A stretch of 21,644 nt of DNA. Origin: a virus. The stretch spans positions 1 through 21,644 of the IMG/VR virus record IMGVR_UViG_3300029981_000064; one strand, given 5' to 3'. Made by a program: the position numbers and the translations under genes. The notes under the pieces are model-generated. The model made no database searches. It had not been told where the DNA came from and saw nothing but the letters and a program-made list of their open reading frames with translations. Positions 5,680 to 16,778 of this stretch are shown here, one piece after another. Every line of letters starts with the position of its first letter. Within the stretch, counting starts at the first letter, position 1.

Positions 5680-7473
5680 ATGAACATAACGAAAATAATA
5701 TCTAGCGACACACAACCCAATGTCTCTAGTTCGTCATTATGGTTAGATACTAGTGAAAAAAATGCAAATGGGGTAGTATTAAAAATCAGTAATGGTCCGA
5801 CCTGGACTGCTATTGGTCCTGATAATGGACCTGGCGATATTGGTTTTAATTTAAAAGATCCATCAAGCGGTGTCAGTATTACTTTAGATTATCAACTAAT
5901 TAATGCATTATCAAAATCAGTTAAATATCAATACACGATAGAAAGAATAGGTTCAACATATTATGCCACTGGGGACGAATATTCAAATTTTTCCGGAAGT
6001 GATGCTACTGTCGTTATTCAGTCCGCTATAAACTCTCTCACAAGTGGTGGTGTGATTCATATAAAAAAGGGATTGTATGATAATATGGGACAACTTACTT
6101 TTAATAATGATAATATCACAATAGAGGGTGAGGGACAAAGTAACACAATATTAAGGCTAAAATCTAATTTTGATGTTTCAGGCACTGACTTTTCATTTAT
6201 AAGATTAAAAAACTCAAAAAATTCTTGTATTAGAAACATTCAGATAGATGGTAATAAATTAAACCAAACTTATCAATGGGAATCTACAAATTCTGTTGCT
6301 AAAATATCTGGTGTAACCGGAGCCTGGTGGGAGGTTGGACAAGCTCAACCATATCGACCTGATAATTTTATTCTTGAAAATTCATTAATTACCAACTGTA
6401 CCCAATATGGAGTATATTTTGATTATGGTAATAAAGTTATTTTACAGAATAATCATTTTCTTAATAATGACGAGAATAATGTAACGATAGGTGTTAAATC
6501 TATGAATTGTATTGTTAGAGATTGTATTTCAGAAGGGAGTAATTCTGTATCTATGACAGTTTATGGCAATACCTTAAATGCAAATAATATAATACAAAAT
6601 TGTAATATCCTTGATTGTTCGAGTTCTATAGGTACGGCATGGGGACTTGCTATAGAAGGAACAACTGGACTAGGTGCAAATGGTTGCAAATTGCTAAATA
6701 ATACCATTACAGGTTCTCATTTCAATTTAGGAATAGGAATGGGTAGGGAGTCAGTAAATTGTATTATCTCAGGGAATGTAATCAATGGGATAACTCAAAC
6801 AGGTTCTGTAGGGATAATGGCATATTATGATACAGGTTCTCAGATTAAAAATAATACTATAACAGGTGCTCAAAATTTTGGAATAGAATTACAAGGTTGC
6901 ACTTCAACAGATGTGTCTGATAATATCATTAGAATGACTACTGGTACTGCTGCATTTAAGACATATGATTTTGGAGCAATACATACCACCTTATGTACCA
7001 TTCATAATAATTACTTCTATAATGGAGGTAGTTATGGACTTCATATGGATTCTGCTGCAACATCAAATAAGATAACATCAAATATTCTATATGGCAATGG
7101 AGCTGATTATCTATTTGGTACAGGTAATTTGGTGCGTTTAAATTTCGGAATAAAAGCATCTGATTGGTGTGAATCTATTTCTACGCCTACATCAACTGGG
7201 ACTATATCCATTCCAATGGACGGAATGTCACAATATAAAGTAACTCCTACAGGAACTATAACATTTAATGCAACAGGAGGTACAGCAGGGCAAAGGTGTT
7301 CATTTACTATTTTAACTTCAGGCACTACTACATATACAATAACGTTTGGAACTAATTTTAAACCAAATGGAACTTTAGCAACAGGGACCGTCTCTGGAAA
7401 ATATTTTGTAGTTAACTTTTTATGTATAAGTCCAACATTATGGATAGAGGTAGGTAGAACTACTGCCCTATAA
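5680..7473 (+). CDS. Right-handed beta-helix tailspike (pectate-lyase-like)
   Basis: 597 residues. Residues 1-60 form a short N-terminal domain, probably for virion attachment (SSSLWLDTSEKNANGVVLKI). At about 104-160 is the typical entry of pectate-lyase-3 folds: FSGSDATVVIQSAINSLTSG, then a GVIHIKKGLY strand, then NITIEGEGQSNTILRL. Residues about 180-490 consist of parallel beta-helix coils of the form NNxI/xGN (NNTITG, SGNVING, SDNIIRM, HNNYFYNG). The C-terminal about 100 residues are Thr/Gly-rich beta-sandwich, plausibly for trimerisation or glycan binding. Such proteins bind and often depolymerise capsular polysaccharide on the host surface. I cannot pinpoint catalytic residues, so cleavage versus pure binding is open. 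It lies directly behind a strong terminator and opens the attachment block. Confidence 0.85.
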   Translation: MNITKIISSDTQPNVSSSSLWLDTSEKNANGVVLKISNGPTWTAIGPDNGPGDIGFNLKDPSSGVSITLDYQLINALSKSVKYQYTIERIGSTYYATGDEYSNFSGSDATVVIQSAINSLTSGGVIHIKKGLYDNMGQLTFNNDNITIEGEGQSNTILRLKSNFDVSGTDFSFIRLKNSKNSCIRNIQIDGNKLNQTYQWESTNSVAKISGVTGAWWEVGQAQPYRPDNFILENSLITNCTQYGVYFDYGNKVILQNNHFLNNDENNVTIGVKSMNCIVRDCISEGSNSVSMTVYGNTLNANNIIQNCNILDCSSSIGTAWGLAIEGTTGLGANGCKLLNNTITGSHFNLGIGMGRESVNCIISGNVINGITQTGSVGIMAYYDTGSQIKNNTITGAQNFGIELQGCTSTDVSDNIIRMTTGTAAFKTYDFGAIHTTLCTIHNNYFYNGGSYGLHMDSAATSNKITSNILYGNGADYLFGTGNLVRLNFGIKASDWCESISTPTSTGTISIPMDGMSQYKVTPTGTITFNATGGTAGQRCSFTILTSGTTTYTITFGTNFKPNGTLATGTVSGKYFVVNFLCISPTLWIEVGRTTAL

Positions 7474-7528: not shown

Positions 7529-7894
7529 ATGAAAAAATATCAAGGAGAAGATATATACTTCTCATTAAACTTCAGTCAATCTACAAATACAGATATATCT
7601 AGTTTTGATGATCTATACAATGTGTTAGTCTATGCTTATACGAGCGAAGAGAATGTTGCTAAGTTTTCTAGAATACCTAAAGATGGTTACGAGCCACTAA
7701 TTGACCCAGAAGATCAGGGATTAATATTAAGAGGTGTAATATCAAGTGAATATACAAAGGAGATGCATGGTCAGATTATTCTAGATGTAATGTGTATCAA
7801 GTCATCAACAGACGGTGATTTAACTGAGAATATAATACAAAAAGCAATGTCTGGTATATTTATAGCACCAACAATTATTAAAGCAGAAGCATAA
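7529..7894 (+). CDS. Small fibre-associated adaptor-like protein
   Basis: 121 residues. The opening KKYQGEDIYFSLNF and a core of beta-type stretches (LYNVLVYAYTSEENVAKF, GLILRGVISSEYTKEMHGQI, ILDVMCIKS) suggest a compact beta-sandwich like the N-terminal or companion domains that anchor fibres to tails. The stop codon overlaps the start of the giant fibre gene (TAATG at 7892-7896), so the two proteins are co-translated; that coupling suggests the two assemble together. There is no membrane segment and no catalytic motif. I do not recognise a named family, and an attachment/adaptor role is inferred from context. Confidence 0.6.
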   Translation: MKKYQGEDIYFSLNFSQSTNTDISSFDDLYNVLVYAYTSEENVAKFSRIPKDGYEPLIDPEDQGLILRGVISSEYTKEMHGQIILDVMCIKSSTDGDLTENIIQKAMSGIFIAPTIIKAEA

Positions 7895-10800
7895 TGGATG
7901 TAGAATTGATAGTATCGCCGGTATATGAAGACATAATAATTCCAGTAACCATTCAGGCTACTGACTTTGTTATTGATTTAGACACCCAAATAACAGACCT
8001 TAATATAGATATTGCCATTGGTGGGCAGAATGGATTACCTGGTAGAGACGGCAAAGATGGTGAGACTATGTGGTACTTAGTTGATCATGATCATATCTCT
8101 CCAGTTAATACACTTAAAATATATGCTGACATAATAGATGGAATACCATTACAGTTACAGTCAGATTATAATCAGTTAGATAATACCAAATTAGATTACA
8201 TAAAGAATAAGCCGCTAATACCCTCTCTCGATGGATATGCGACTGAATTATTTGTAACCGACATAACTGACCACAAGGAGGAAGAAGGTGTAGCACAGGA
8301 CCTTATAATAGCTCTAGGGCTAGGTACAGTGGTTATCCATAACTATGATGAGTTCGCATTAGCATTAACTAGCGATGAAAACTATGTAACTGATTTAGAA
8401 AAGACTAATTTACATGCTCCTCATAGTGATGATCAAGATTTATCTCCATATCAATTACTTTCTGAAAAGGGCGCGATTAATGGGTATGCTGGCCTAGATG
8501 CTAATCAGAAATTATTCTTAGTAAATTTACCAGATTCTATTTTAGGTCAATTACAATACCAAGGAACATGGGATGTTTCTGTTGGATCCTATCCTTCGAA
8601 TGCACTTAAAGGATATTATTGGATTGCCATTAATACTGGCATTATTTCCTCAATTGAGTATTCTACTGGAGATTGGATAGTATACAATGGGGTATCTTTT
8701 GATAAAATAGATAATACTGCAGCCGTAACTAGTGTTTCTGGTAGAACTGGAAATGTTATTCTTAATAAATCAGATGTAGGATTAGATTTGGTAGATAATA
8801 CCAGTGATATGGATAAACCTATATCTACTGCAACTCAGATTGAATTAGATTATAAAGTAACTATCCAAGCGGTAAATCTTGCACTATCATTCAAGGAAGA
8901 TATAAGTAATAAGATTACTGATGTTTTAGTTGATTCAGAAGTAGAGTATCCAAGTTCATCATTAGTGTTAAATCAATTGAATTTAAAGGTTGATAAAGTT
9001 GATGGGTCCAGGTTGATTACTACTCCAGAGTCAGTTATATTAGGTAATACTTCTAATATAAATAGTGGAGACAATGCAATAAATACTCGTTATTCTGGAC
9101 TTGTTACATTCCCTGGATTTGGGAATACTCATTTATTATCGGCATATGGAGATCATTTACATACTGGAATATACGAACCTATATTAGGAGTACCATTAGC
9201 AAATAATTATGTTCTATCATCAGATACAGGAGGTATTAGAAGTTGGAGTACTGTTAATTCAAAATTAACTACTGGCTATGGAGATACTATAAATCCGTAT
9301 ACTGTTAAATTAGCTAAAACATTTCTTGCGGCTCCCGTGGCCTCTACTGGTAATGCCTCGTTTAGATTAATAACTGCATCTGATATCCCAGCATTACCAT
9401 ATTCCCCATCGTCTACTGTATCTTTTCCTGGGTTTGGGGTAATAACTAATAAGGCATGGGGTTTTGATGCCCATCCTACTACTATTTCTGGATATGGAAT
9501 AACTGATCTTCCAAACATAACTAAATTATATTCTACAGATGACCCTATAAATACATATATAAGCAGTTCTTTTGATGGTCAGTATTTGCAATTACAAAGT
9601 AATAATGGACGATTACTTAGTGTAAATCATTCTATCAATTCGAACGTAGCTGAAAATTGTAATACTTTACAGGGATATTCGCCATCTACAGTTGCTGTGG
9701 ATAATGGCACTGCTGTTGTAGTTACTGATATAAACGGTTATGTTAATGGTAAAAGATTTGTAAAAAGTGGTGGATTAGCTACTGAATTCTTAATGGCAGA
9801 TGGATCTGTACAGACTATAGGTCCAAAAGGAGACAAGGGAGATACTGGACTAACCGGAGAACAGGGCATTCAAGGTATACGAGGAATTAAAGGGGATGTT
9901 GGCTCTCAAGGATTACAGGGTATTCAAGGTCCAATTGGTAATACTGGCCTTACGGGAGCTAAAGGGGACCAAGGAATACAAGGGATACAGGGACTAAAGG
10001 GAGATCAGGGAATTCAGGGTGTTGCTGGTACTGTAAATATTAATGGGTTAGGTTTTGTAAAGGCGAATGGAAATACTATAAGTTATGATAACAATACTTA
10101 TTCTACTATAGATTATGTTGATACTAAAATATCTGATTTAATAGATAGTTCTCCAGCACTATTAGACACATTAAATGAATTATCTGCGGCACTAGGAGAT
10201 GATCCTAATTTTTCTACTACCGTAATGACTGCAATTGGGTCAAAACAATCCCAATTAGATGGAGTTGGATTAGTTAGGATGAACAATAAAGTAGTTTCAT
10301 ATGATAACAATCCCTATATAACGTCTAATTCAATTGGATATTTAAATACTCTTCATACTGAAATGCAGGGCCCTGATCCATCTGAATCGTTTAGTAGCAC
10401 TATTAATCTACATAAGATAGCTAAGACAGGTTATTATACTGATTTATTAGGTAGACCAACTCAATTATCACAATTTACAAATAATTTGGATTTTACTACT
10501 AAGACGTATGTGGATTCAAATGATTTATGGGAACTAAAAAATCCAAAAATCGAATTAGTAGATAGTGTAAATGCATATGAATACGAAGATGATTATAAGA
10601 ACGTAACAGTATTTTTTAAAAAAAGTACATTTAATAATGGAGAACCAATTAGTTTGTATTTGGCAAATGGAACATTTGTTATATCTTCTACTTTTAGCGA
10701 ACCATCAAATGCGCTACAGACTACAATTCCATTTCCAGATATAACTTCGGCTGATCTTTATAGAGATGTTAATAGTATAGGAAGTTATGTTATATCTACT

Positions 10801-13800
10801 AATTCTATAAATATTCCAAGACCAAAAAATGGTCTAAAGATTAATATGGATGATGTTAATGAATTAGATACTGAATTTTCAAAGAAAACTTCGAATCCAT
10901 TATATAATACAACAATATCAAAATTAGATTTAACCTGGAAAAATGGATGGATTATTATATCTACTATTGGTTCTTGGGATAATAGATATACTATAAAAAT
11001 TACATCCCTATTAATTAAAACTTTTACTGGTATTAAGAAATTAAATCCTATAGTTTTATATCCAAGTAAAGATACATATAATGGGACATTGCCCGCTGTA
11101 TTTTATCTAAGAGATGTTGATGGATTTTTACGTGAAGATTATGAATTTGAAGAAGTTTCAGTTTCTTATGATATAACTTCTTCTCAAAATTCTAATGGAT
11201 ATAATTCATTAAAAGAAAATCTAGGTGAGAATGTGATTGATGATGGTAATGCTGGAGATGAATGGCATTCTAATATAATGGTACAATGTTTCAATTTAGT
11301 ATATCCTGGATTTTTAACTAAAGGATTATCAATTATAGAAACATTATCAGATCCAATTACTGGGAATAACGATGTAGAGGCAGATTTTACTGCTACATAT
11401 TTAACTATAAAAAATGCAAATATGGTTATTAGACCATATACGGGTGCGGCAGATAGCGAAGAGTCTTATAGTAATCCAAATGTATTAACAACGGCGTCTC
11501 ATTTTGCAAATGCTTTTCAAAGACGTGATATTACTTTAAATGCTACTACGTTTCTTAGAAATACTATTGCGGTAGGGGCAAGACCTAATGATACTACTTC
11601 AATGGTTGGTGTTTCTTATGGTTTTGGTATGGAGTTTTTTGAAGATACAAGTTATAATGGATTAAACGCTATTGCTGCTGGATTAGGGAATATATATTAT
11701 ACAGATCCTCAGGCTGCTCCTATATATATGGAATCTCCAGTATGTGCTATTGTTGCAGCTAAATTAAAGAATATTAAATTAGAATCTGGAGTTAATTGGT
11801 CTATAGTTAGAAAAGCTGCAAGAGCAACTGCATCTAATAATGGTGTATGGGATATGTATCGTGGTTTTGGTAGTATTAATGTTACCGCCGCAATACAATG
11901 GATTAAAGATAATTATACTGAAAATGTTTCTGTTAGAAATTACATTGCAGATAAATTAGAATCCGATAAAGGCATTAGTCCTATTCTTAAATATTCTGAC
12001 TTATACCCAAATAGTCCAGTATCTAAGAAGATGACAGATCTAATTTTGAAAGGATACGTTAATACAGATCAATCCACCCAACAAACGATAGGTTCAATCT
12101 CAAATCGATTGGGTAAATTGTGGGGGAGTGATGTTGATTTTAATAATATGCCAATAGTGGCTGGAACATCACTTAATAATACTTTCCTATCACTTAATGG
12201 TGGAAGTATGAATAATATTAATTTAGTTGGTAATTTAAATGCTCAGTATTTTAATGGTAAAAGTGATGCGTTGTTTATTAAAAATAATGGTTATTTAACC
12301 GCAAATCAAGATTTAAACTCTTTACAAATAGGTATAAATGCAAATGGGGGAAACTCAGGTAATAACTCCCCAAACGTAAATGAATATGGAGTTGCATTTA
12401 CTATAAGTACTGATCCTTATTATGGCTGGCAAATGTATCAAGATAATGATGGGCAGCTACATTCAAGGAGTGCCGGAACTGGTACTTGGAATAGTTGGAG
12501 AAAGATATTGGACGATCAAAATTTCACCCCTGCTAATTATATTCAAAATAGCCCAACATCTGCTCAAAGTGGTAGTGTGTGGGTCGATGGAGTAGTAAGA
12601 TCGTCTATTTACAAGGGTGCTGCATATCCAAATGCAACATCATTTGGGGATGATACAGATGTTAGCTATACTAAATTGTACGCTGGGTCAACGGCTGGAA
12701 GTGTTAGTGGTATTTATATACAAGGTGGAGGTGCAAGTAATCCAAATACTATTACATTAAAAACTTCAAGTATTGATAGATTAATTATAAATGCAGATGG
12801 TGCAGCCACCTTTGCATCCACCGTTCAAACAACAGGGATTACCCCAACAAACCTGACAACAGGATATATCCCTATGAAAAGCAGTGGAGTGTTGGTTGAT
12901 AGTCCATTGTCTATAGTAAGTGAAATTACAACTATTACAACAGGAGATCAAGCGTCTTCAAGGTTTAATATTATAAATACATCTGGTCATAGCTTTTCTT
13001 TAGTTGCTGGTCAAACAAATGAAAGTCAGGATGGATTTAGTATATATGATACAAGTTTAGATGCCACAAGACTTGCAGTTACTAATTCTGGCAATGTTGG
13101 AATAGGGTACTCCACAGGAACTGAAATAACTAATAATAAGTTAGCGGTGAATGGGAGTGGGCATTTTAATGGAGATATGCTTGTTTATGGTGGTATTGCA
13201 TCTGGAGGACGAATATCTGCATATACTATTGATGCTGGTGTAGATTTTATTCTGAGCAATGTTAATCGATCCCTAATAGGTACAGACTATAGTGAGAATA
13301 AAGTTCAGTTAATAGGGGTTTTTGAAGACAATCTTATACATATTGATGATAATGGATATGGAGTAAACTTTAATGGATCTATTAAATCTAATAATTTATC
13401 TGGCACTGGGACTAGAATGGTTGTTGCTGATAGTTTAGGGGTGCTATCAACTCAAACTATACCATCTGGTGGTGGTGGTGGATCTGTAGTATCCGTTGGA
13501 ATCGACAATGCTAATGGCTTTTATGGTTCATCTAGTGGAGGAGTTAATCCATCCTTGAATATTAAAACCAATATTAATGGAGTTTTACTTGGCAATGGCA
13601 TCTCTGTATCAGCATTAAATGGTAGTGGTTTTTTAAAGATAAATGGAAGCGGTGTTAGTTTCGATAATAATGACTATATACCATATGTTGGGGCTACAGC
13701 TAATGTAGATCTTGGAACTACGCATACAATTACAGCAAACAACTTTATACTTTCCTCTGATAAGAGATTAAAGGAAAATATACTTCCTATATCTACTAAA

Positions 13801-14007
13801 ATTCTAGACATTGAGTATAAGGAGTTTGAAATGATATCGACTCCAGGAGAAAAAAGATATGGTGTATTGGCTCAAGATCTGCGAGAAGTAGCGCCAGAGT
13901 TAGTCAATGAAGACGAAAATGGCATATTATCCGTTAAGTATATAGATTTACTTATTAGAAAGATTGCTGAATTAGAAAATAGAGTAAAACAATTGGAGGG
14001 TAAATAA
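7894..14007 (+). CDS. Giant modular tail fibre with subtilisin-like domain and S74 chaperone
   Basis: 2037 residues, the longest complete gene in the window. Domains in order: attachment region (1-40); short collagen-like patch (44-56); helical/beta repeats, including SVSGRTGNVILNKSDVGLDL (about 280-299) and ISGYGITDLPNI (531-542), typical of long phage fibres; 23 uninterrupted Gly-X-Y triplets (643-711); two copies of a GxGFVKxNG...SYDNNxY repeat (718-736, 790-808), with a third at 1910-1928; a beta domain (about 870-1050); a diverged subtilisin/S8 domain (about 1085-1340, candidate triad Asp1093, His1125, Ser1281); a pyocin-knob-like segment ending in WNSWRKILDDQNF (about 1490-1545); and a C-terminal peptidase S74 chaperone (about 1950-2037) starting SDKRLKENI at 1955. 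S74 domains trimerise fibres and then cut themselves off, usually before the Ser of this motif. Starts and stops overlap both neighbours as TAATG. It is probably the main host-binding fibre; the protease role is inferred. Confidence 0.85.
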   Translation: MDVELIVSPVYEDIIIPVTIQATDFVIDLDTQITDLNIDIAIGGQNGLPGRDGKDGETMWYLVDHDHISPVNTLKIYADIIDGIPLQLQSDYNQLDNTKLDYIKNKPLIPSLDGYATELFVTDITDHKEEEGVAQDLIIALGLGTVVIHNYDEFALALTSDENYVTDLEKTNLHAPHSDDQDLSPYQLLSEKGAINGYAGLDANQKLFLVNLPDSILGQLQYQGTWDVSVGSYPSNALKGYYWIAINTGIISSIEYSTGDWIVYNGVSFDKIDNTAAVTSVSGRTGNVILNKSDVGLDLVDNTSDMDKPISTATQIELDYKVTIQAVNLALSFKEDISNKITDVLVDSEVEYPSSSLVLNQLNLKVDKVDGSRLITTPESVILGNTSNINSGDNAINTRYSGLVTFPGFGNTHLLSAYGDHLHTGIYEPILGVPLANNYVLSSDTGGIRSWSTVNSKLTTGYGDTINPYTVKLAKTFLAAPVASTGNASFRLITASDIPALPYSPSSTVSFPGFGVITNKAWGFDAHPTTISGYGITDLPNITKLYSTDDPINTYISSSFDGQYLQLQSNNGRLLSVNHSINSNVAENCNTLQGYSPSTVAVDNGTAVVVTDINGYVNGKRFVKSGGLATEFLMADGSVQTIGPKGDKGDTGLTGEQGIQGIRGIKGDVGSQGLQGIQGPIGNTGLTGAKGDQGIQGIQGLKGDQGIQGVAGTVNINGLGFVKANGNTISYDNNTYSTIDYVDTKISDLIDSSPALLDTLNELSAALGDDPNFSTTVMTAIGSKQSQLDGVGLVRMNNKVVSYDNNPYITSNSIGYLNTLHTEMQGPDPSESFSSTINLHKIAKTGYYTDLLGRPTQLSQFTNNLDFTTKTYVDSNDLWELKNPKIELVDSVNAYEYEDDYKNVTVFFKKSTFNNGEPISLYLANGTFVISSTFSEPSNALQTTIPFPDITSADLYRDVNSIGSYVISTNSINIPRPKNGLKINMDDVNELDTEFSKKTSNPLYNTTISKLDLTWKNGWIIISTIGSWDNRYTIKITSLLIKTFTGIKKLNPIVLYPSKDTYNGTLPAVFYLRDVDGFLREDYEFEEVSVSYDITSSQNSNGYNSLKENLGENVIDDGNAGDEWHSNIMVQCFNLVYPGFLTKGLSIIETLSDPITGNNDVEADFTATYLTIKNANMVIRPYTGAADSEESYSNPNVLTTASHFANAFQRRDITLNATTFLRNTIAVGARPNDTTSMVGVSYGFGMEFFEDTSYNGLNAIAAGLGNIYYTDPQAAPIYMESPVCAIVAAKLKNIKLESGVNWSIVRKAARATASNNGVWDMYRGFGSINVTAAIQWIKDNYTENVSVRNYIADKLESDKGISPILKYSDLYPNSPVSKKMTDLILKGYVNTDQSTQQTIGSISNRLGKLWGSDVDFNNMPIVAGTSLNNTFLSLNGGSMNNINLVGNLNAQYFNGKSDALFIKNNGYLTANQDLNSLQIGINANGGNSGNNSPNVNEYGVAFTISTDPYYGWQMYQDNDGQLHSRSAGTGTWNSWRKILDDQNFTPANYIQNSPTSAQSGSVWVDGVVRSSIYKGAAYPNATSFGDDTDVSYTKLYAGSTAGSVSGIYIQGGGASNPNTITLKTSSIDRLIINADGAATFASTVQTTGITPTNLTTGYIPMKSSGVLVDSPLSIVSEITTITTGDQASSRFNIINTSGHSFSLVAGQTNESQDGFSIYDTSLDATRLAVTNSGNVGIGYSTGTEITNNKLAVNGSGHFNGDMLVYGGIASGGRISAYTIDAGVDFILSNVNRSLIGTDYSENKVQLIGVFEDNLIHIDDNGYGVNFNGSIKSNNLSGTGTRMVVADSLGVLSTQTIPSGGGGGSVVSVGIDNANGFYGSSSGGVNPSLNIKTNINGVLLGNGISVSALNGSGFLKINGSGVSFDNNDYIPYVGATANVDLGTTHTITANNFILSSDKRLKENILPISTKILDIEYKEFEMISTPGEKRYGVLAQDLREVAPELVNEDENGILSVKYIDLLIRKIAELENRVKQLEGK
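9820..10026 (+). repeat. Collagen-like Gly-X-Y tract inside the giant fibre
   Basis: 23 perfect Gly-X-Y triplets (residues 643-711), dominated by GxQ, GxK and GxT triplets such as GIQ, GDQ, GDK and GLT. Gly is encoded mainly by GGA/GGT with scattered GGG/GGC. Such tracts form triple helices and fit a trimeric fibre shaft. Low-complexity repeats like this expand and contract readily, so tract length is expected to vary between relatives. Confidence 0.9.
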
Positions 14008-14993
14008 TGGCAAATTTAGTACCAGATACAAATACATTTAATCTAAAAGACGTAACTCAAGTTATTTATGGAGTATCTACTGGTAGTTTACGAGATTCTT
14101 TTTCTAGTTCTATTTCAATTGGTTTCGATTCTAGGTATGTGGGTAGTAAAAATAATTTATATAATTTTAGAAACTACTGGGTTGGCACTATGTTGTCTCA
14201 AACCCCATTTATAGCACCAGTTGATTTTGTTAATAGCTCCCAGCCAGTTGACATAGTTAGAGAATATAGTAAATTTGTGAGTGGTCCTGGAACTGCATAT
14301 TGGAATGCGTCTGATGCAAGATATATATTTAGTGTCTCTGATGATGTTACTTCTACCCCTACTGTTGATACATCATATTGGAGTGTAGTTCGAGTTGAGC
14401 AAATAGATGGAAACTCTATTTATACTCCAATCAACTGGTCATCAATACCTTGGACTGCGGGAAGTACTAAAAGATATGTTATAGGGCTTAAAGGGTCAAG
14501 TGACATAGTTACGGCATTTATACCAAATGGTGCTATATGGGCATATATTGGAAATAAATGTAATTCTATTTTAGCAACAAACGCAGTATCTTTAAAATAT
14601 ATACATTGTCAGGATTTACAATCTATAACTATATTTCCTGAAAGTGCATTTTCAGGGTGTAGTATATTGCAGGGTGTTTGCAATTACCCTAAAATATCAG
14701 AGGTGCCGAGAAATTGCTTCTATTCATGTATAGGAATAACTAGGATGATACTACAAAAAGAAACTATTGGGGCTCGTGATTTATCATTCTCGTTCTGTCA
14801 ATTTAGTAGATTAGATATATATAGGCAAACATATCCTCTTGGGTTAAATCCAAGTTCATTTGATAATTTCTCATTTTATAATTGCACTGTTCATATACCA
14901 ACCGGCATGAATACCGGTCTATATACAATGGAAATCTGGTTCGGGCAGCATGTATGGACATTGATGGGAGGAGGGATAGTCCCCGATTTATAA
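14007..14993 (+). CDS. Fibre-associated protein with BspA-type leucine-rich repeats
   Basis: 328 residues. Residues 1-55 form a domain I recognise as common at the N-terminus of Bacteroidota phage tail proteins (NTFNLKDVTQVIYG, then YVGSKNNLYNFRNYW). A linker region (about 60-150) follows. Residues about 160-315 contain LRR_5 (BspA-like) repeats with the pattern IxxxAFxxCxxLxxV (IFPESAFSGCSILQGV, then VPRNCFYSCIGITRMI, then the FSFCQFSRLDIY and FDNFSFYNCTVHIP coils), closing with the typical IPTG cap at 297-300. These repeats bind proteins or glycans and are abundant on gut Bacteroidales surfaces, so a host-derived adhesin tip is plausible. The start overlaps the fibre stop (TAATG), so it is co-translated with the giant fibre and probably caps or partners it. 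LRR assignment is confident; function is inferred. Confidence 0.75.
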   Translation: MANLVPDTNTFNLKDVTQVIYGVSTGSLRDSFSSSISIGFDSRYVGSKNNLYNFRNYWVGTMLSQTPFIAPVDFVNSSQPVDIVREYSKFVSGPGTAYWNASDARYIFSVSDDVTSTPTVDTSYWSVVRVEQIDGNSIYTPINWSSIPWTAGSTKRYVIGLKGSSDIVTAFIPNGAIWAYIGNKCNSILATNAVSLKYIHCQDLQSITIFPESAFSGCSILQGVCNYPKISEVPRNCFYSCIGITRMILQKETIGARDLSFSFCQFSRLDIYRQTYPLGLNPSSFDNFSFYNCTVHIPTGMNTGLYTMEIWFGQHVWTLMGGGIVPDL

Positions 14994-16331: not shown

Positions 16332-16778
16332 ATGAAGTTAAAATTAATAAGACACACATTTAAAGAAGATTATACAGTAGGAAAATTGTATATTGATGAA
16401 GTTTTCTATTGTGATACAATTGAAGACAGGGTGAGGGATATTAACAAGGATGGAGATTTAGATGAGCCTGGAGAGACTAAAATATTTGGGTTAACGGCAA
16501 TCCCATATGGCACATACGATATAGATTATACATATTCTCCTAAGTTTAAAAAAAATATGGCTCTTATCGTTGGAGTTAAAGGATTTGATGGAATTAGAAT
16601 TCATGGTGTTTTGCCTGGCGTAGTTGCTAGGGCTAAACATACTGAGGGTTGTATCCTTGTTGGTAAAAATACTGTTGTTGGAGGGCTGACTGATTCCGCA
16701 TTTTATCAAAAAGATATAAACAAAAGAATTGGAGATGCTTATAGTGATATGAAGACCATAACTATTACTATTGAATAA
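16332..16778 (+). CDS. DUF5675-family protein, probable endolysin-like cell wall enzyme
   Basis: 148 residues, no signal peptide or membrane helix. The family pattern is clear to me: YTVGKLYIDEVFYCDTIED (14-32), a LTAIPYGTYDIDY segment (54-66), FDGIRIHG (85-92) and HTEGCILVG (103-111). His91 and Cys107, in the context IRIHG-x10-HTEGCI, resemble the catalytic His/Cys signature of L,D-transpeptidase (YkuD) enzymes. This suggests a peptidoglycan enzyme, though cleavage has not been shown for this protein. DUF5675 genes often sit in phage lysis clusters, and here it follows a holin-like and a spanin-like gene. The family is confident (0.85), the enzyme role is an inference. The first two bases of its stop overlap nothing; its final A is also the start of a mini-ORF (TAATG). 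Confidence 0.75.
   Translation: MKLKLIRHTFKEDYTVGKLYIDEVFYCDTIEDRVRDINKDGDLDEPGETKIFGLTAIPYGTYDIDYTYSPKFKKNMALIVGVKGFDGIRIHGVLPGVVARAKHTEGCILVGKNTVVGGLTDSAFYQKDINKRIGDAYSDMKTITITIE

Follow-up and report, generated by a model that had tools for sequence, protein, structure and literature searches.

A strongly diverged subtilisin-type domain in a crAss-like phage tail fibre, missed by standard protein databases, suggests an exchangeable putative enzyme shared with unrelated phages

A giant tail fibre encoded by a crAss-like phage includes a subtilisin-type domain that is strongly diverged and goes unnoticed in standard protein databases. Several unrelated phages have this domain too, in their tail or virion proteins, which suggests an exchangeable putative enzyme borne on the attachment arms of the virus. 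The window analyzed here, meaning the whole stretch of 21,644 nucleotides from IMG/VR record IMGVR_UViG_3300029981_000064, represents part of a crAss-like phage genome, as its capsid, ring, and muzzle profiles indicate; it encodes a partial major capsid protein (PF23898, E = 5.6e-110), ring protein 1 (PF24228), and the muzzle protein (PF25731). Judging from the structural model, the core of the fibre domain very probably has a subtilase fold.

Fibre gene and domain organization

The fibre gene, its modules, and the candidate catalytic positions are as follows.

7894..14007, + strand: giant tail fibre gene (2037 aa), an intact open frame with tail-fibre PHROGs and with collagen and S74 Pfam matches
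9889..10029, + strand: collagen-like repeat, fibre residues 666-712 (PF01391, E = 4.4e-10)
10488..12067, + strand: inserted cassette with the subtilase module, in place of which contig L003 has 128 bp (blastn of the window against L003)
10906..11181, + strand: beta-rich domain, residues ~1005-1096, directly 5' of the subtilase core (AlphaFold2 strands from 3-9 to 87-96 of the model)
11146..11913, + strand: subtilase-like core, residues 1085-1340 (AlphaFold2 and Foldseek; ten-member alignment A9)
11170..11172, + strand: Asp1093, candidate catalytic acid, not conserved in the family (alignment)
11266..11268, + strand: His1125, candidate general base near the N-terminus of a helix, invariant (alignment and AlphaFold2 model)
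11509..11511, + strand: Asn1206, candidate oxyanion-hole residue after the fifth strand, invariant (alignment and AlphaFold2 model)
11521..11535, + strand: R-x-D-x-T loop, residues 1210-1214, with Asp1212 and Thr1214 invariant (alignment)
11614..11643, + strand: SYGFGMEFFE motif, residues 1241-1250, counterpart of the subtilisin SFSSVGPELDVMAPG segment (alignment; hmmsearch alignment to M-protease)
11734..11736, + strand: Ser1281, candidate nucleophile near the N-terminus of a long helix, invariant (alignment and AlphaFold2 model)
13756..13905, + strand: C-terminal Peptidase_S74 intramolecular chaperone domain, a module apart from the subtilase (PF13884, E = 1.9e-9)

The initial annotation had read S8-order motifs in the core, with Asp1093, His1125, and Ser1281 as the triad and Asn1206 as a candidate oxyanion residue. 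These motifs were found at the residues quoted, and recomputing the spacings returned the same values (32 from Asp to His and 156 from His to Ser). Its description of a diverged domain, with the glycines around His and the GT before Ser changed, also agrees with the sequence: the GHGTH and GTSMA signatures are absent, the window having GDEWH and MESPV and the relatives QQSPA or QQSWA. Placed in the register of BPN', the R-x-D-x-T loop would lie beside the S1 pocket.

Several neighboring genes were also recorded. A 597-aa right-handed beta-helix protein adjoining the fibre (window 5680-7473; PF13229, E = 9.3e-16) is a candidate tail spike or depolymerase, and a 328-aa protein 3' of the fibre (14007-14993) has a weak match to BspA-type leucine-rich repeats (PF13306, below cut-off). 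A DUF5675 protein lies among the tail genes (16332-16778; PF18925, E = 6e-23); the open frame at 17313-17744 of contig L030 encodes a possibly similar protein.

Relatives and conservation

The window's own domain had no match in Pfam, NCBIfam, or the PDB sequences, PF00082 did not match the window, and searches of PHROGs and known phages with the domain gave nothing informative. The claim therefore needed relatives. The search started from relatives of the capsid, among which contig L030 (whole gene in L084/L085) yielded a copy that is 34-36% identical and lies in a protein of 1065 aa from a second crAss-like virus. Scanning IMG/VR with alignments then brought in L086, L088, L089, L090, L093, L094, L095, and L100, making nine IMG/VR relatives of the core together with L085. 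A final IMG/VR scan with the alignment found no further contig, and scanning genome contigs with narrow patterns matched no relative.

Across the ten-member core alignment, identity to the window is 27-55%. Only 26 of the 256 columns are invariant, and they include His1125, Asn1206, and Ser1281. The chance that three preselected columns would all be invariant is p ~0.0009, so the motif match is more than chance. Asn1206, proposed earlier from a single sequence, is thus present in all ten members. The acid behaves differently from these three. Its position holds Asp in the window and L086 and Asn in L085; L090 and L094 have no Asp at a distance of 20-45 residues ahead of His, and the remaining members have an Asp near the strand end whose register shifts with the alignment. 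With Asn at this place in the second crAss-like member and no Asp near it in two further relatives, the classical Asp-His-Ser triad is, as the alignment reads, not a family feature. The earlier claim of an intact triad therefore holds for the window protein and fails for the family.

Asp1093 lies in VSVSYD, the last strand of the beta-rich domain before the core, which is kept in L085/L086 and weakly in L093-L095/L100. We considered that this strand could be part of the preceding beta domain alone, which would take Asp1093 out of the active site; the model gives little guidance on this point, as its linker at positions 97-109 is below pLDDT 50.

The distance from Asn to Ser is 163-243 residues in L085, L086, and L090 versus 68-75 in the others. 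The extra sequence of these three sits between the SFGFGxEF/EFFED motif and Ser, beside the presumed active site, a place where substrate selection could change. The flank 3' of the core is similar in most members. After the core of L088, residues 1092-1267 match a phage head spike fibre domain profile (NF048003, E = 2.6e-7, below cut-off).

Predicted fold and resemblance to S8 proteases

The AlphaFold2 model built from the ten-member alignment reached a mean pLDDT of 77.3 and a pTM of 0.68, with a linker at model positions 97-109 below 50. In the Foldseek comparison with the PDB, subtilases made up all 50 of the matches listed (best E = 1.6e-6, probability 1.00), with TM-scores to subtilisins of only ~0.4-0.5. 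The order of helices and strands matches subtilisin; His1125 (model position 125) falls in helix 123-136 and Ser1281 (position 281) in helix 280-298, a placement that we take to be as in BPN'. As a control, a single-sequence AlphaFold2 model of the same region (pLDDT 32) gave no Foldseek match below E 0.02, and no subtilase appeared among the 50 matches listed for this low-confidence model. Structure prediction followed by Foldseek, part of the check that the initial annotation had proposed for this region, thus predicted a subtilase fold, with a clean negative control.

Among viral models (BFVD), the best match was A0A6J5SVB5 of an uncultured Caudovirales phage, an unannotated protein known as a predicted model, with E = 1.1e-10 over 239 columns, 20% identity, and a TMt of 0.57. 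It is the nearest viral fold match, and four of the five matches after it are or include proteins named S8, mycosin, or subtilase.

Profile matches were obtained on the relatives. The T7SS_mycosin profile, an S8 protease model, matches L088 from two residues ahead of Ser onward (E = 3.4e-6, below its cut-off), and PF00082 matches the Ser region of L089 at E = 0.002 with 12.1 bits against a cut-off of 21.8. A search of the PDB with the family profile placed M-protease at the top, weakly but in register (E = 0.099), and hhalign of the family against ten S8 sequences was weak (probability 10%, E = 0.003). The proposal of a diverged S8 fold is thus supported by the structural comparison, by the weak in-register profile matches on relatives, and by the invariance of His, Ser, and Asn1206.

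These results place the family near Peptidase S8 (PF00082; BPN', savinase, M-protease, T7SS mycosin) in predicted fold, element order, the position of His and Ser near helix N-termini, the Asn at the oxyanion position, and a similar His-Asn-Ser spacing. The family differs from S8 in that the window sequence is below Pfam detection, Asp is not conserved, GHGTH and GTSMA are missing, no pro-domain was seen, and the window domain lies inside a tail fibre. Phage-encoded subtilases are also found as stand-alone S8 proteases in phages of Bacillus, Staphylococcus, and other hosts (e.g., Goe3, SP-15, PSU4), but these are annotated as separate protease genes, have canonical motifs, and align to BPN' at 32-46% identity (alignment A11); compared by profile, they resemble the new family weakly.

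An inserted cassette and its spread among phages

In blastn of the window against L003, the flanks (10444-10487 and 12068-12124) match and the interior does not, ~1.58 kb of the window being replaced by 128 bp. L003 is a close relative: its capsid segment is identical to that of the window at the protein level, and its fibre has the same N-terminus. The L003 fibre (8678-11536) also carries, near the N-terminus, a Fib_succ_major domain (PF09603) that the window fibre lacks, which gives this gene a second optional module.

Among 50 capsid-related records, many of which are fragments, the domain is present only in that of L030. The crAss capsid and muzzle profiles both lack a match in the records of eight members, although these may be incomplete. 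Among the genes identified next to the core genes, L100 has terminase and portal, L088 a portal, L095 a baseplate hub and a collar fibre, and L090 a tail sheath; the ten-digit IMG identifiers of the L095 and L100 records may denote isolate genomes. The carriers of the domain are crAss-like, sheathed-tail, and other phages. In the tree, the partner of the crAss-like L085 is the sheathed L090 (100/97) and that of the window is L086 (81/90), so that the virus groups are intermixed. The position of the module also varies, from near the middle of the window fibre to the C-terminal end of the L090 protein. Tree and cassette replacement would fit the exchange of a host-interaction module between unrelated phages.

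Discussion

We consider it somewhat better than an even chance that the domain is a diverged subtilase on an exchangeable fibre-shaft cassette, with Ser/His/Asn machinery, that likely cleaves a host-surface protein or peptide at adsorption. Ser1281 would act as the nucleophile, His1125 as the base, and Asn1206 as the oxyanion residue, together forming the acylation machinery; Asp1093 probably orients His1125 in the window protein, and some relatives would do without it. During adsorption, a protein or peptide of the host surface would be hydrolyzed, as polysaccharide depolymerase domains do to their substrates on other tail spikes. An external target is favored because the module is optional, exchangeable, and found at different positions in its carrier proteins. 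Against this account we count the loss of Asp in some members, of the GHGTH glycines, and of GT, together with the weak hhalign result and the TM-scores.

A protease of maturation, cutting the fibre itself or a neighboring virion protein once during assembly, is a rather unlikely alternative. It would explain why Ser, His, and Asn are kept but Asp is not, as a single-turnover intramolecular cut tolerates this better than multi-turnover catalysis, and the missing pro-domain and similar 3' flanks are in keeping with it. However, with the module in mid-fibre in the window and at the C-terminal end in L090, no fixed cut site is evident, and the absence of the cassette from nearly all relatives indicates that fibres in general can mature without it. 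Furthermore, the fibre already has its S74 chaperone for self-processing; self-cleavage of Peptidase_S74 domains is known from other fibres. The comparison of sequences thus leans to an external target over self-processing.

The missing Asp of some members and the degraded GHGTH and GTSMA signatures could also be those of a dead subtilase fold serving only as a receptor- or glycan-binding surface, which we regard as rather unlikely too. Ser, His, and the oxyanion Asn, the residues most needed for acyl-enzyme chemistry, are invariant in ten diverged members, which is not expected of a binding surface free to evolve. Least of all do we expect an accidental likeness in a tail-fibre receptor domain of another fold: the window domain's lack of Pfam, NCBIfam, and PDB sequence matches and the moderate TM-scores would suit it, but the uniformly subtilase PDB matches listed, the S8-rich viral matches, and independent S8 profiles meeting the relatives at the Ser motif, with a clean control, make it highly improbable.

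To our knowledge, the enzymes of phage tail fibres are mostly polysaccharide cutters, and the open-access papers searched contained no account of a phage tail fibre with a subtilisin domain. Enzyme domains on the variable tail spikes or fibres of crAss-like phages have likewise been described in Crassvirales, where a review names glycosyl hydrolase, phosphatase, and CHAP domains and does not name a subtilisin-type protease (PMC10136315). The words "protease" and "peptidase" are absent from the text of the crAss001 atlas (PMC10172136). A bolder reading, somewhat less likely than not, is that the ten members represent an overlooked family of subtilase fold, with Ser-His and an oxyanion Asn, a dispensable Asp, and a cassette moving among tail-fibre and other virion proteins of unrelated phages, as the protein-cleaving counterpart of the depolymerases.

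If the favored account is true, some phages attack a host-surface protein through a subtilase-type domain of the fibre, which would add an enzyme class beyond the Crassvirales tail-spike domains named in PMC10136315. None of the Pfam and NCBIfam models run on this protein recognized the family, whose other copies may therefore lack annotation. The loss of Asp in some members would, in turn, make the family a natural experiment in reducing the subtilisin triad.
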